DNA from: Chamaelirium japonicum
Lineage: Eukaryota; Streptophyta; Magnoliopsida; Liliales; Melanthiaceae
NCBI GenBank assembly: GCA_947650365.1
Contig: OX393555.1
Location: forward strand, 17,368,512 to 17,432,511
Length of the DNA stretch: 64,000 nt
Direction of reading: 5' to 3'
Part shown: positions 11,967 to 42,985 of the stretch, piece by piece
Layout of the letters: every line of letters starts with the position of its first letter
How positions within the stretch are numbered: position 1 is the stretch's first letter
Program-made: the position numbers and the translations under genes
Notes under the pieces: generated by a model
Told to the model about the DNA's origin: nothing
The model's database searches: none
Seen by the model: the letters and a program-made list of their open reading frames with translations, nothing else

Positions 11967-12146
11967 GAGAAATGCTATTCAGCCCAAAGGTTTTCCCGAA
12001 TCCGCTCAGCCCGATTGATGTGACAGCGTTCAACTGGTGGGGTAAAAGATTTAAATGTCTCTATTGAGTTCAGCCACCAGTTAAATACTGCCATGTTAAT
12101 TGGGCTAGCGGAATCGGAAAAACCTTCGGGCTGAATAACATTTCTC
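11967..12146. mobile_element. Mutator-type MITE family M, copy 1, with 9-bp TSD
   Basis: 180-bp near-palindrome with ends GAGAAATGCTATTCAGCCC and, inverted, GAGAAATGTTATTCAGCCC. It is flanked by TAAAAGATG at 11958-11966 and 12147-12155. A 9-bp duplication points to a Mutator-like transposase. Sister copies are at 18890-19057 and 42805-42985. Confidence 0.85.
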
Positions 12147-18889: not shown

Positions 18890-19057
18890 GAGAAATGCTA
18901 TTCAGCCCGAAGGTTTGTCCCGAATTCGCCGGCCCGATAGATGTGGCAGCGTGCAACTGGTGGCTGAAACCCACTAGAGATTTTTAAATCTTTAACAGCA
19001 CCAGTTGCACGCTGCCATGTCTTTCGGGACAAACCTTCTGGCTGAATAGCATTTCTT
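18890..19057. mobile_element. Mutator-type MITE family M, copy 2, with 9-bp TSD
   Basis: Near-palindrome with GAGAAATGCTATTCAGCCCG ends, flanked by TTTTGAATT at 18881-18889 and 19058-19066. The inner arms CGTGCAACTGGTG / CACCAGTTGCACG are inverted, so a transcript would fold along its whole length. Confidence 0.85.
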
Positions 19058-19781
19058 TTTTGAATTCCTTACAAGTCCCTGATTTCAGTACCTTGACCGA
19101 TCGATACATATCCACAAGTTCTATTTTTTACATCCACTTCCATAAGGAAGATGTAGCTTCACTTTTTATAAGCACTTCCATTGCAGAGCTGTAACATAAA
19201 AAAAAAAATGAAGCTGCATCCGAATTATCTTTATGTCGGTAGTTTGATATTAACATTTCCCAAACCCCTAGAAAATCTCATGTTGAATATTTCAAAATGC
19301 AGCTTTAGGTTTCAGCTATGAAAACAAGTTTAATATGCCTTTTTTGTTTTCAAATTGACAAACTAAATTTCAGATTGAAATTTTGTAAAGAAATATTTCA
19401 ACAAACATAACTTTATTTCCTAAGGTTTAAGGGTTTTAAACTTTATAAATATGAGGGAAATGTTTTCTTTTAGCTGCTGAAGTTTGCAATCGTTTCCCCC
19501 TTGGTCCCTTTCTAAGGTCACCAAATTTTTACTAGGGTTTTAGGGTTTGCCATTGGTGGTGCATCATAAGGTATGTTTACTGATCTATTTAGGGTTGCGT
19601 TTTCGATGTTGTTGGTGGACTGGTTGGTTAAAACAATCATTTGGGTGATCCTCATTTGTTCTTTGTTCTTCCTTGAATTAGGTGGTTCAGATATTCTTGT
19701 ATTTATAAATGTATCCATGATTGTCACTGGCCTGATTATTTACAATATAGGCTTACTTATTGTACATGTGTCAATGAGTTA
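19058..19781. other. Intergenic DNA, nothing recognised
   Basis: AT-rich. The open frame at 19573-19782 is hydrophobic but has no recognisable domain, and I do not call it. Confidence 0.4.
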
Positions 19782-20220
19782 ATGGGCTAGCCCGAACTCG
19801 GCCTGAAGCTCGAATAATAAAATGGGCCGAGTTCGGGTTGGGTAGGTTGATTTTTATTCGGTTTGTATTTGGGCTTGGGAGAGCTAACTAGGTTTCGGGT
19901 AGGATAAGACTTGCCCGACCCAGCCCTACCCGATTGACAAGCCTAAATAAACCTCCTCACTATTTCTAACACTATATAAAAGCTCAATGAATAGCTCTAA
20001 CAAACTTCTTAACAAACATAACATCCTAACTAGCAACTCGTTAACAAACATAACCCTAGGTCCGTAACTCACTATCTCTTTATATAAACACCCCACTGGG
20101 TCACTTGGGATTTGTTTCATCTCTCGATCTCTCTCTCCCAACTGCAAAACAAAGATCTCACTCTTCCTCTCACCCGACGATCTCGCGCCCGTGACTCTCC
20201 CTTTCGGTGACGACGCAGAG

Positions 20221-20822
20221 ATGCCTCCTAGCCTTTAAGCTCCGACCATCCATGAGACTAGACTTGACCTGGAGATCTCTCTGACTGGATGGCCGGAGCT
20301 TCAGGCTTCAGTTGCATCATCGCAATCCATGGTGATCTGTTGGATCAAGGATATACGCTCCATCCAGCACCGAGGTCCGAGCCGGGAGCAGATCGTCGGT
20401 TTCTCCTACATGCCGAGTGTCCTGCGTCTATCAGTCGGTCAACAGTCTCTTTTTTTAATGACTGTTGAGTCCAACGACACATATCTCATTGGCTAAAGAG
20501 GTTCTTGACCAGCAAGAGCAACATCTTCATTGTCGTTGGGATCAGGGGAGATGCCGGAAGGTTGGAGGCAGACTTCGAAATGGGCTACTAAAATCGGTGG
20601 ATCTCCTCGCGCGCTACTGAGATGCGAGTGGAGGAGATTGTGGACGGCTCACTCCTCTGCAAATCCTTAACAGATCCATCCCGAGGAGGGAGAATGAGGT
20701 CGCAACTCCAGCTCGTCCAAGTGATCATTAAATTGGGATCGGTGCCCTTGAAGGCTACTATGCCCACAACCTAGGGCGTTGTCTGGTGCACTAAATCGTC
20801 TCCACTATGTTTTGTTCTGTCT
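20221..20822 (+). pseudogene. Exonuclease-like pseudogene, left arm
   Basis: Starts ATGCCTCCTAGC, with an in-frame TAA six codons in. Decayed reading frames then give ICWIKDIRSIQHRGPS, IVGFSYM, SVLRLSVGQQSLF, and LEADFEMGY after further frame changes. The order resembles plant 3'-5' exonuclease-domain proteins of the Werner-like (DEDD) type, where VGLDxEW, LQLCVG, FVGVG and the VDL segment follow each other. The first catalytic D-x-E is not visible (IVGFSYM in its place). Upstream are a TATATAAA box (about 20080) and a pyrimidine-rich leader, suggesting the original was an intronless expressed gene. The family assignment is by eye and moderate. No functional protein is encoded. Confidence 0.5.
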
Positions 20823-20831
20823 CCAAACAGA

Positions 20832-21420
20832 ATAGAATAGAGAGGAGATGATCTAATGCACCAGAAGGCACCCCGGCTTGTGGGCGCAGTACCCTTCAAG
20901 GGCTCCGATCCTGATTTAACGATCACTTGGATGAGCCGGAGCCATGGCCTCATTCTCCCTCTTCGGGATGGATATGCCAAGGATTTACTGAAGAGCGAGC
21001 TGTCCATGATGCCCTCCACTCGCATCTCAGTAGTAGAGAGGAGATCCACTGATTTTAGTAGCCACACTTCAAAGTCCGGGCATCTCCCTTGATCCAGACA
21101 CCGACAAAGATGTTGCTCTCGCTGGTCAAGAACCTCATTATCCGACGGGGGATGCCGCTGGACTCAGCAGTCATGAAAAAGAGAGGCCGTTGACCGACGG
21201 GTAGACGCATAACACCCGACATGTATGAGAAGCCGACGATCCGCTCTCCACTCGGACCTCGGTGTTGAATGGAGCGTACATCCTTGATCCAACAGATCAC
21301 CTCCGCGGATTGCAACGGAGGCAACCAAAGCTTGAAGCTCCGATCATCCAGTCAACAAGATCTCTAGGTCGCGTCTTGTTTCATGGATGGTCGGAGCTTG
21401 CAAGTGAGGAGATATGTCTG
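20832..21420 (-). pseudogene. Exonuclease-like pseudogene, right arm
   Basis: Inverted partner of 20221-20822, better preserved. Two long open stretches in different frames (21324-21055 and 21067-20771) encode VICWIKDVRSIQHRGPSGER, IVGFSYMSGVMRLPVGQRPL, FFMTAESSGIPRRIMRFL, NIFVGVWIKGDA and, after one frameshift, LLKSVDLLSTTEMRVEGIMD. The pattern VGxxxLFF...SGIP...FL...FVGV...D...KSVDL fits the exonuclease-domain family. The DEDD first-motif acids appear lost. Its leader and TATA box lie at 21420-21620, so this copy would be transcribed toward the left-arm copy. Confidence 0.55.
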
Positions 21421-22353
21421 TGCACCATCGAGAGGGAGCATTGCGGGTTGGAGGGGGAGCGTGATTGTTCGGGCGAGAGAGGAAGAGCGAGATCTCTGCT
21501 TCGAGAGGGAGAGCGAGATCTCTAATTTGCGATCGGGAGAGAGAGATCGAGAGATAGAACAGAGCCAAAGTGAGACAGTCGGGCATTTATATAGTATTAG
21601 AGATAGTGAGTTAGGGATCTAGGATTATGTTTGTTAACGAGTTAGTTTGTGAAGAAATTTGTTAGAGGTATTCTTAAAGCAAGATTATATAGTGTTAGAG
21701 ATAGTGATGAGGTTTGTTTAGGCTTGCTAATCGGGCTGGGTTGGGTCCAGGCTTGCCCGGACTCGGCCCAAAACCTAGTTGGCTCTCCCAAACTCGAACC
21801 CAACCCAAATAAATTTCAACATGCCCAACCCAACCTCGGCCAATTTTATTATTTGGGCTTCGGTTGAGTTCGGGCCAGCCCATTTACTTAGTCAAGAATG
21901 ATTTTCATGTTGTTACCAAATTTATCACTACATGTATGAGTGCTGAACCTACATTTTCATCAGATCAAAGCCCTTTTGGGTGATCCTTGTTGCCAATGCA
22001 TCTTAAAATGTTAACTGTGACATATCAGTTGTCTTCGCGTTGAGTATACTAAGAAGATGAAGTGGTTCATCGCGCATCTTGAGATGTTCACTGTGATTTC
22101 ACGATCGACAAACTGTTAAGGCTTCGTGGATGCAGTATTCCCATAGCTACCAAGTCAGAGGTCGGGAAAAAATCTGCTAGGGAAGAATTCGGAAAAATCA
22201 GAAAAAAGTCGGAGACGTTGGAAAACAAATCTAGCACAATGTGGAACACGCACCCGATATCACATTCACATGACAATCTCAACAATCGTGGCTCACGGTT
22301 CCGCGGACACGGTCATGGGTATGGCAATGCCAACTCCTTCAGTGACACGGCCC

Positions 22354-22764
22354 GCTAGAAATCATCTATTCCGATGTCTGGGGACCAGCTCCGATTCAAT
22401 TTTTTACTCGAAATCGGTTTTATGTGCACTTTATGGATGCATTCAGTAGATTCACATGGGTACTCCCTATAGCCCTAGAACAGTGATGCTGTACCTTGCT
22501 TTATTCAATTTTAAACTCCTGTTGTTGAGAATTTGCTTGGGGTGGAGAGTATTGGACTGTTTCTTCATACTTAGCCTCCCACAACATTGGGCATCGAATC
22601 TCGTGCTCACATACACATCAACAAAATGGTGCTGCTGAAAGGAAACATCGACATATCGTGGAGGCCGGTCTGGTCCTATTGGCCCATGGTTCAATTCCAT
22701 TCCATTTCATCACCCTAACTGATTTCTGGTTGAATATCTTTTTCTTTGTTACCTTTGAACCCGA
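22354..22764 (+). mobile_element. Ty1/copia integrase remnant
   Basis: LEIIYSDVWGPAPIQFFTRN, FYVHFMDAFSRFTWVLPIAL, then after stops and frame changes QQNGAAERKHRHIVEAGLVL. These are the integrase-core landmarks of copia Pol (SDVWGP, F-x-D-x-F-S-R-x-T-W, QQNGxAERKHRHI). A Gly/Arg-rich piece resembling the end of gag precedes it (about 22281). The RT is absent. The reading frame is cut by R copy 4. Confidence 0.85.
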
Positions 22765-23262
22765 TTCTTTTTTTTTTTTTTTTTGGTATTTCAAAGGTGG
22801 AAGGTCACAACCTGGTGCAAGCAGGAGATGCCACAGTCTGGTGCAAGCACGAACCACCGCAACCTCCTGCGGAAAGACAGGCCCCAGGCCTAAACAACAA
22901 CACCACACCACACCACCGGGGGGGGGGACACCACCAAGCCGCAACCAGGCGTAGAGCAGACCCGCAACCGGGCAACCGAAGATCACATCACCAACCACTG
23001 GCGGGGGACAGAAACAGACTCACACAGAGACAAGAAACATACAACAAACCTTTAAAAAAACCCCAAAAAAAATCGGAACCAGCGCCGGATCATGCCTCAT
23101 ACAGCACCGGCGACGTAGACAGCCCCTCCGCGTCCTCTCTCACCACTAACCAACTGCCACCGCCAGGATCCAAAACCACGCAGAGGATGGTCTGGAAAAA
23201 CCCACGGCGAACTCCGGCTGGGGTCCAGATCACCACTCCAGCCGCGAAATCAGCCTGGAGCC
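22765..23262 (-). mobile_element. R-family retroposon, copy 4, inserted in copia remnant
   Basis: Left T-run (22766-22783) and GGTATTTCAAAGG are the reverse of a TTTGAAATACC-poly(A) tail. The body shares family text such as CCTGGTGCAAGCAGGAG. CCGATTC occurs on both sides (22760 region and 23260 region), a possible short TSD. Confidence 0.7.
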
Positions 23263-23428
23263 GATTCATGCTTGAAGAGAAAAATCCATTAATCTTTGAA
23301 GTACCCGGACAAACAAATGCATTATGAAGAACTATTTGTTTGGCTAAAAATTTAGCGCTCTACTAAGTTATTTCGATGACTCGCTACTTTAAAGAAATCC
23401 TGCATAACGTCGACTTTTCTACAAGCCC

Positions 23429-24117
23429 TCGGGTGTCCTGCGTCTGTCTGTCGGCCAGCAGTCTCTCTTCTTCATGACTGCTGGGTAGGGCTGGCAATTT
23501 CGGACCCGACACGGCAGACCCGACACGAAGTTAGTGGGGTCAGGGCTAAGCGGTTCGGGTCATAAACAAGTCGACACGATATAACCGTTTAATAAACGGG
23601 TCAGGTCCGGGTTTAGGGTCTGGACATGGTAGACCCGGGAAGATCTGTTTAAAATTTAACGGGTCTTGTCGGGTCGGGTCGGGTCGGGTCTACCCGCAAT
23701 CCGATACTGTAATATATAGTATCAGTGGGTCTATCGGGTAATGTCGGGTTGAGTCGGATCGGGTCAACTGAATAAACCTGTGTGGTAAATGGGTCTAACG
23801 GTCTTATCAGATCTACCCGTTTATAAACAGGTCGGGTACGGGTTTAGAATCTAGACACGATTAGTTAAACGGGTCGGGTCCGGGTCTAGGGGTTTTGGAC
23901 ACGACCTGAAATTAGACACGACACGAACCCGACCTGACAAGACCCATTGCCACCCCTACTGCTGGGTCCAATGACATCCGCAGTCATCTACAGAGCTCCG
24001 AAGCGAGAGCAACACTTCATCGGCGTCGGGGGAGATGCCGGAATGTTGGAGGCGGACTTCGAAATGGCTCCCCTGAAATCAGAGAATCTCCTCACCAGTC
24101 TCTGCTGCTGAGATGCA
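23429..24117 (+). pseudogene. Third exonuclease-like fragment, split by hAT elements
   Basis: 23429-23485 reads GVLRLSVGQQSLFFMTA, and 23967-24120 continues with GGDAGMLEADFEMAPLKSENLL in shifting frames. This matches the segment at 20400-20640 of the palindrome arm. Two family H hAT elements interrupt and then end it. Single copy, same strand as the left arm. Confidence 0.6.
23486..23958 (-). mobile_element. hAT-type MITE family H, 8-bp TSD CTGCTGGG
   Basis: 473 bp. It begins TAGGGCTGGCAATTTC and ends ATTGCCACCCCTA, with CTGCTGGG on both sides (23478-23485, 23959-23966). The body is built of (A)CCCG/CGGGT words around a CGATACTGTAATATATAGTA centre. Confidence 0.9.
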
Positions 24118-24120
24118 AGT

Positions 24121-24570
24121 TAGGGGTGGCAATGGGTCAGGTCGGGTCGGGTTCGTGTCGGGTATAGTTTCAGGTCATGTCCAAAACCTCTAGACCCGAA
24201 CCCGACATGTTTAACTAATCGTGTCAAGATTCTAAACTCGTACCCGACCCGTTTATAAACGGGTAGACCCATTAGACCCATTTACCACACGGCTTTATTC
24301 AGTTGACCAGATCCGACTCGACCCGACCTAACCCAATAAACCCACTGATACTATATATTACAGTATCAGATTGCGAGTAGACAGGACCCGTCGAATTTTA
24401 AACGGGTCGTTCTCGGATCTACCGTGTCCAGACCCTAAACTCGGATCCGACCCGTTTATTAAACGGGTCTATCGTGTCGACCTGTTTACGACCCGAACAA
24501 GTTTAGCCCTGACCCGGACCCGCTAACTTCGTGTCAAGTCTGCCGTGTCGGGTCAGAAATTGCCAGCCCT
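24121..24570 (+). mobile_element. hAT-type MITE family H, TSD ATGCAAGT
   Basis: Begins TAGGGGTGGCAATGGGTC and ends AAATTGCCAGCCCT. ATGCAAGT flanks both sides (24113-24120, 24571-24578), so the terminal A was lost. It sits in the exonuclease fragment in the opposite orientation to the neighbouring copy. Confidence 0.88.
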
Positions 24571-24900
24571 ATGCAAGTGGAATTTTATGTGACCAAATTG
24601 AACCCAAGACCTCAACCATAACCCTAACCCAACCCAAGCTCGTACTTAGGGTTGGCAATGGGCCCAAATCCAGCCAAATGTCTGATTAAGCCCGGCCCAT
24701 TTGGAGCAGATTTAGGCCTATAGTTCAAAGATTAAATATAGGCTTGGGCTTATATCTTGGGCCTAAAGCAAAACTAGACGGGCCCAGGCTTGTATAGGTT
24801 TGGCCCGAATCCGACCCACAGTCATAATTGGTGTTGGGTGTACCCGACATGTCTAGAAAATCTTGGAGTTTCTTGTGACCATCGCTAGCTTACAACACAA

Positions 24901-42804: not shown

Positions 42805-42985
42805 GATAAATGCTATTCAGCCCAAAGGTTTTCCCAATTTTGCCTGCCCGATTGCCGTGGCAGCGTGCAACTGGTACTATTAAAGATTTTAAAATCGCTA
42901 GTGGATTTCAGCCACCAGTTGCACGCTGCCACATCAATCGGGCCGGCCAAATCGGGACAAACCTTCAGGCTGAATAGCATTTCTC
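42805..42985. mobile_element. Mutator-type MITE family M, copy 3, with 9-bp TSD
   Basis: 181 bp with GATAAATGCTATTCAGCCC ends, flanked by ATGAAGAAC at 42796-42804 and 42986-42994. Confidence 0.88.

Follow-up and report, generated by a model that had tools for sequence, protein, structure and literature searches.

Within the 64-kb window analysed here, i.e. the whole stretch of 64,000 nucleotides taken from contig OX393555.1 of Chamaelirium japonicum, the region 19777-21888 forms a palindrome whose two halves face each other across a very short centre. Its main parts, and the TATA-like motifs found in both halves, are the following:

19777..20820, forward strand: left arm of the palindrome, with an outer TE-like piece, a promoter-like part, a leader and a decayed coding region (repeat search, blastn, alignment)
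20821..20826, no strand: centre of 6 nt separating the arms (repeat search)
20827..21888, reverse strand: right arm, with its parts in identical order and opposite orientation (repeat search, blastn, alignment)
19973..19979, forward strand: TATA-like motif 1 of the left arm (motif match only)
20081..20087, forward strand: TATA-like motif 2 of the left arm (motif match only)
21685..21691, reverse strand: TATA-like motif 1 of the right arm (motif match only)
21587..21593, reverse strand: TATA-like motif 2 of the right arm (motif match only)

Architecture and divergence of the arms

When positions 19001-22800 were compared with the window using blastn, the region 19777-21888 matched its own reverse complement with 74.3% identity over 2204 columns, gaps counted (E 0.0), while a repeat search located the inner arm segments at 20614-20820 and 20827-21033, separated by 6 nt. 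A preliminary description of this DNA had spoken of two opposed arms of about 1 kb almost touching at 20825, which agrees well with the ca. 1.05 kb of each arm and the centre at 20821-20826; both the coordinates and the convergent layout that it gave are right. The region 19777-21888 is thus a long inverted repeat with a short loop, one of the features expected of a natural hairpin locus producing siRNA.

A global alignment of the arms, with the centre included (19777-20823 against the reverse complement of 20824-21888), contains 1099 columns, of which 1013 are ungapped and 810 of these identical (80.0%, K2P 0.24). The differences comprise 143 transitions, 60 transversions and 86 gap columns. 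These figures bear directly on the possibility of an assembly or library artefact, i.e. a chimeric inverted copy, which the preliminary description had raised against its own reading of the locus. Artificial inverted copies are generally known to occur in assemblies, but they would be nearly identical, whereas the arms differ at 203 of the 1013 aligned bases, besides the gap columns, and do so in a transition-rich manner. The artefact was therefore rejected on the 20% divergence as very unlikely, with next to no probability left to it, and the palindrome is almost certainly non-artefactual, real and old.

Concerning the promoter-like parts, one TATA box had been named for each arm; TATA-like motifs are indeed present in both, but the motif search gave two per arm, at offsets of 196 and 304 within the left arm and of 197 and 295 within the right one. 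In the right arm the two motifs sit within a 23-bp direct repeat, the copies of which are 98 bp apart. Because both motifs are present in both arms, the small direct repeat that holds them would probably predate the inverted duplication. A pyrimidine-rich leader is visible in both arms on inspection of the sequence.

The decayed coding region and its third copy

The coding region occurs in both arms and, partially, a third time to the right of the palindrome:

20239..20799, forward strand: decayed, putatively exonuclease-like coding region of the left arm, with stops and frameshifts; bounds approximate (translations, copy alignment, profile search)
20830..21351, reverse strand: decayed, putatively exonuclease-like coding region of the right arm; bounds approximate (translations, copy alignment, profile search)
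23402..23485, forward strand: first piece of a third, partial copy of the coding region (repeat search, blastn, translations)
23967..24119, forward strand: second piece of the third copy, beyond a hAT-like insertion (blastn, translations)

Translations and alignment bear out the proposal that the two arms share one broken coding region, oriented towards the centre in each. All translated frames of both arms and of the third copy contain stops, i.e. no reading frame is intact, and readable coding pieces can be aligned among the three copies. Searched against the PDB up to E 10, the three-copy profile retrieved only 2e6l (E 0.2) and 2fbt (E 0.35), both of Werner-type 3'-5' exonuclease, with which the decayed region aligns over about 65 residues; a control with the three rows reversed retrieved one unrelated chain (E 0.88). 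Neither the separate pieces nor the three read-through rows matched any Pfam family up to E 10, and PDB searches with single sequences of the coding pieces gave no match. Structure prediction from two sequences, a 98-residue right-arm piece and a left-arm piece, was uninformative (mean pLDDT 33.4), and the phrase 'Werner syndrome-like exonuclease', combined with plant, tandem and pseudogene, appeared in none of the papers listed by a literature search. The name of an exonuclease-like gene, given in the preliminary description, consequently keeps weak but specific support from the PDB profile, the reversed control being negative for Werner, and receives none from Pfam; the modest E values, the Pfam result and the broken frames are also what sets the region apart from the Werner-type enzymes. 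An exonuclease-like origin of the coding region is likely but weakly shown.

The third copy is located 1.5 kb from the palindrome and contains neither its promoter nor its ends. It is split by an insert at 23486-23958, hAT-like at its ends and flanked by an exact 8-bp repeat, CTGCTGGG; another hAT-like insert, at 24121-24570, lies at the end of this copy, with the 8-bp repeat ATGCAAGT and ends similar to those of the first, the bounds and repeats of both inserts having been read by eye. Over the 215 columns common to all three copies, the arms are 83.7% identical to each other, and the third copy is 73.5% identical to the left arm and 73.0% to the right one, in a rough gapped alignment for which the flanks of the third copy were joined with a few insert bases. 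The greater likeness between the two arms suggests that the third copy had already branched off when the inverted duplication took place.

Differences between the arms were also counted by codon position in four overlapping or adjoining stretches. In one of them, 20245-20480, positions 1, 2 and 3 differ at 11 of 79, 9 of 78 and 20 of 77 sites, respectively (p = 0.07), a hint that one or both copies may have been coding for a while after the duplication. The corresponding counts are 8, 4 and 10 in 20332-20480, which is part of that stretch, 4, 2 and 6 in 20499-20595, and 15, 11 and 12 in 20595-20790, the last with no coding pattern.

Outer ends and mobile elements of the window

The outer ends of the arms, and the short repeat that adjoins them, show the following features:

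19782..19945, forward strand: outermost, hAT-like piece of the left arm; bounds approximate, likeness to a hAT terminus at the inner end only
21719..21881, reverse strand: counterpart of this hAT-like piece in the right arm, again outermost; bounds approximate
19770..19774, forward strand: GTCAA next to the left arm, one of the two units of a 5-bp direct repeat that flanks the palindrome; a weak candidate for a target duplication
21891..21895, forward strand: GTCAA, right member of the 5-bp direct repeat

The hAT likeness of the outer pieces is judged by the usual form of hAT termini and by comparison with the two inserts that begin at 23486 and 24121. At its inner end the piece agrees at 16 of 20 bases with an element-like start at 24643-24662, a pair compared without shuffle control, and in the left arm the match between its outer and inner termini scored 14, the 95% level of shuffled sequences being 16. 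The claim that both outer ends bear the same hAT-like piece therefore stands as regards its presence in both arms and the hAT-like inner end, but the search yielded no convincing second terminus and no convincing 8-bp duplication.

Target duplications are of 8 bp in hAT and of 9-11 bp in Mutator elements. With 27 shifts tried at the symmetric outer ends, no exact 8-bp target-site duplication was found, and the candidate of the whole palindrome as a hAT element was rejected for lack of such a duplication at matching ends. The only exact direct repeat of at least 4 bp obtained with these shifts is GTCAA, which adjoins outer ends alike at 12 of 15 bases; this is suggestive, but to our knowledge a 5-bp duplication fits no common plant DNA transposon. 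Among the 20 rows listed, longer or near-exact direct repeats (e.g. TTACTTA, 7 bp exact) have mismatched ends or fall inside the arms. The earlier suggestion of a transposon-borne duplication is thus left with a 5-bp direct repeat at symmetric ends and is not borne out.

A broader version of the same idea would see the palindrome as a non-autonomous DNA transposon of the Pack or foldback type that captured a gene, has very long terminal inverted repeats and moved as a unit. The arms do reach from the outer end almost to the centre, the outer pieces appear TE-derived, and the partly matching ends beside GTCAA would suit such an element; however, the length of GTCAA departs from the hAT and Mutator sizes given above, the longer repeats pair with the wrong ends or positions, no second full copy occurs within the 64-kb window, and the third copy of the coding region comes without promoter and ends. 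We therefore regard this origin as unlikely.

Other elements of the window are of diverse kinds. At 18891-19056 there is a short foldback repeat (arms of about 60-70 bp), parts of which are found again at 11968-12000, 12116-12145 and 42952-42984, as in a MITE-like family. The broken frames at 22083-22700 look as though they derive from the gag and integrase of a Copia-type retrotransposon; Pfam searches with three frames of this stretch gave no gag or integrase match and one chance-level hit below the cut-off. An open frame at 471-1709 contains a zf-RVT domain (Pfam, E 1.8e-12) and is probably a non-LTR retrotransposon remnant.

Hairpin potential and mode of decay

The minimum-energy fold of the whole palindrome reaches -1410.6 kcal/mol for the forward strand, with 877 of its 889 pairs running from arm to arm, and -1396.7 kcal/mol for the reverse strand (871 of 883 pairs), as compared with -657.8 to -695.5 kcal/mol for eight dinucleotide shuffles of the forward strand. 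The single RNA with a stem of about 1 kb that had been envisaged is, judging from the 877 arm-to-arm pairs, possible. With G:U allowed, 881 of the 1013 aligned positions pair in the forward-strand RNA, and the longest helices are of 29 nt (forward strand) and 36 nt (reverse strand). Comparing the arms in windows of 21 nt, 4 of 1079 are perfect and 506 have four mismatches or fewer. At this latter threshold 65 of 1027 21-mers of the left arm and 20 of 1045 of the right arm match the third copy; with two mismatches or fewer the numbers are 25 and 5, against 3 and 0 elsewhere in the window, 19701-24700 being left out.

The stable fold, the long G:U-containing helices and the preference of arm 21-mers for the third copy all speak for a working natural hairpin locus, whose read-through RNA would be diced into siRNA silencing intact relatives of the exonuclease family. 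Furthermore, in tobacco, hpRNA constructs with one mismatch in four positions still gave RNAi, and the mismatches prevented self-silencing and self-methylation (PMC9263138); therefore, a divergence of 20% does not by itself exclude activity. The same source adds that RNAi becomes less efficient when dsRNA stability is reduced, presumably via poor Dicer processing, which tells against a working locus, as does the fact that the third copy is itself broken. Signs of maintenance are also missing where they were sought. A hairpin kept from one strand is expected to favour transitions that leave G:U pairs on that strand, but such transitions number 71 for the forward-strand and 72 for the reverse-strand hairpin (p = 1.0); no strand bias and no conserved core indicative of a hairpin kept by selection were found, and identity is flat along the arms (0.70-0.85 in 11 blocks of 100 columns). 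Hence, a working hairpin locus seems improbable to us, and its special form, a mismatched natural 1-kb hairpin in which arm divergence would block self-methylation while siRNA would still be made against the exonuclease family, considerably more so.

The changes themselves offer some indication of how the arms decayed. Transitions affect 43 of 112 C/G sites in CG context, 27 of 90 in CHG and 73 of 341 in CHH (CG vs CHH, p = 0.0007), an excess in CG context that fits what the decay of methylated cytosines would produce. Against this view, the arms are not CpG-poor: their observed/expected CpG ratios are 0.78 and 0.79, with 0.70 for the window, 0.67 for the 5 kb to the left and 0.86 for the 5 kb to the right.

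The reading we prefer, with a probability of about 0.68, is that a copy of a plant gene, together with its promoter-like region, underwent inverted (foldback) duplication long ago and is now decaying. A head-on duplication of one copy would have come first, perhaps through a template switch at a short inverted repeat in the middle. This step is suggested by the short spacer only, a spacer of the kind to be expected after foldback or template switching; in yeast, inversions of the foldback type that pass through hairpins have been described (PMC7467729). From then on both copies would have behaved, for the most part, as neutral, methylated DNA and decayed accordingly. Given past or present activity of either promoter, read-through would yield a single long imperfect hairpin RNA, and the two promoters would give complementary RNAs as well, which plant Dicer-like enzymes could cut into siRNA. 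We think that any siRNA output so predicted would be incidental and not a selected function; most probably, the palindrome is what neutral decay has left of an exonuclease-like gene, and its hairpin potential is equally incidental. Counter-points to the relic reading, besides the codon-position hint and the CpG ratios, are that the fold is far more stable than those of the shuffles and that a mismatched hairpin can trigger RNAi.

Several plant loci of related anatomy have been described. In Arabidopsis, inverted gene duplications yield siRNA or young miRNA (PMC1790633); the palindrome shares with these small-RNA loci and young MIRNA genes of the MIR161 and MIR163 type the inverted protein-coding copies and the foldback potential, but differs in its 1-kb arms, in having promoter-like parts in both, and in being known from sequence alone. 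Poplar ARR17 likewise has partial inverted gene copies able to form a hairpin, for which published work reports 24-nt siRNA as well as methylation at the promoter of the target (PMC9636151), whereas siRNA from the palindrome is a prediction. The teosinte Tpd1 locus, also a plant locus of long hairpin RNA, makes abundant 22-nt siRNA against its gene, and its 4,480-bp hairpin precursor includes a 73-nt stretch of nearly full complementarity (PMC11390486); here the hairpin is predicted and arm identity is 80%. In the soybean I locus, inverted CHS gene copies are able to silence relatives, from a 27-kb cluster with siRNA shown (PMC3804491). With known siRNA loci the palindrome would appear to share only anatomy and, since siRNA-making inverted duplications are already known, it would be at most one more case. 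If siRNA is made from it, the palindrome would be an example of the arm divergence that a natural hairpin tolerates before it fails; as a relic it records no more than what commonly becomes of inverted gene duplications.
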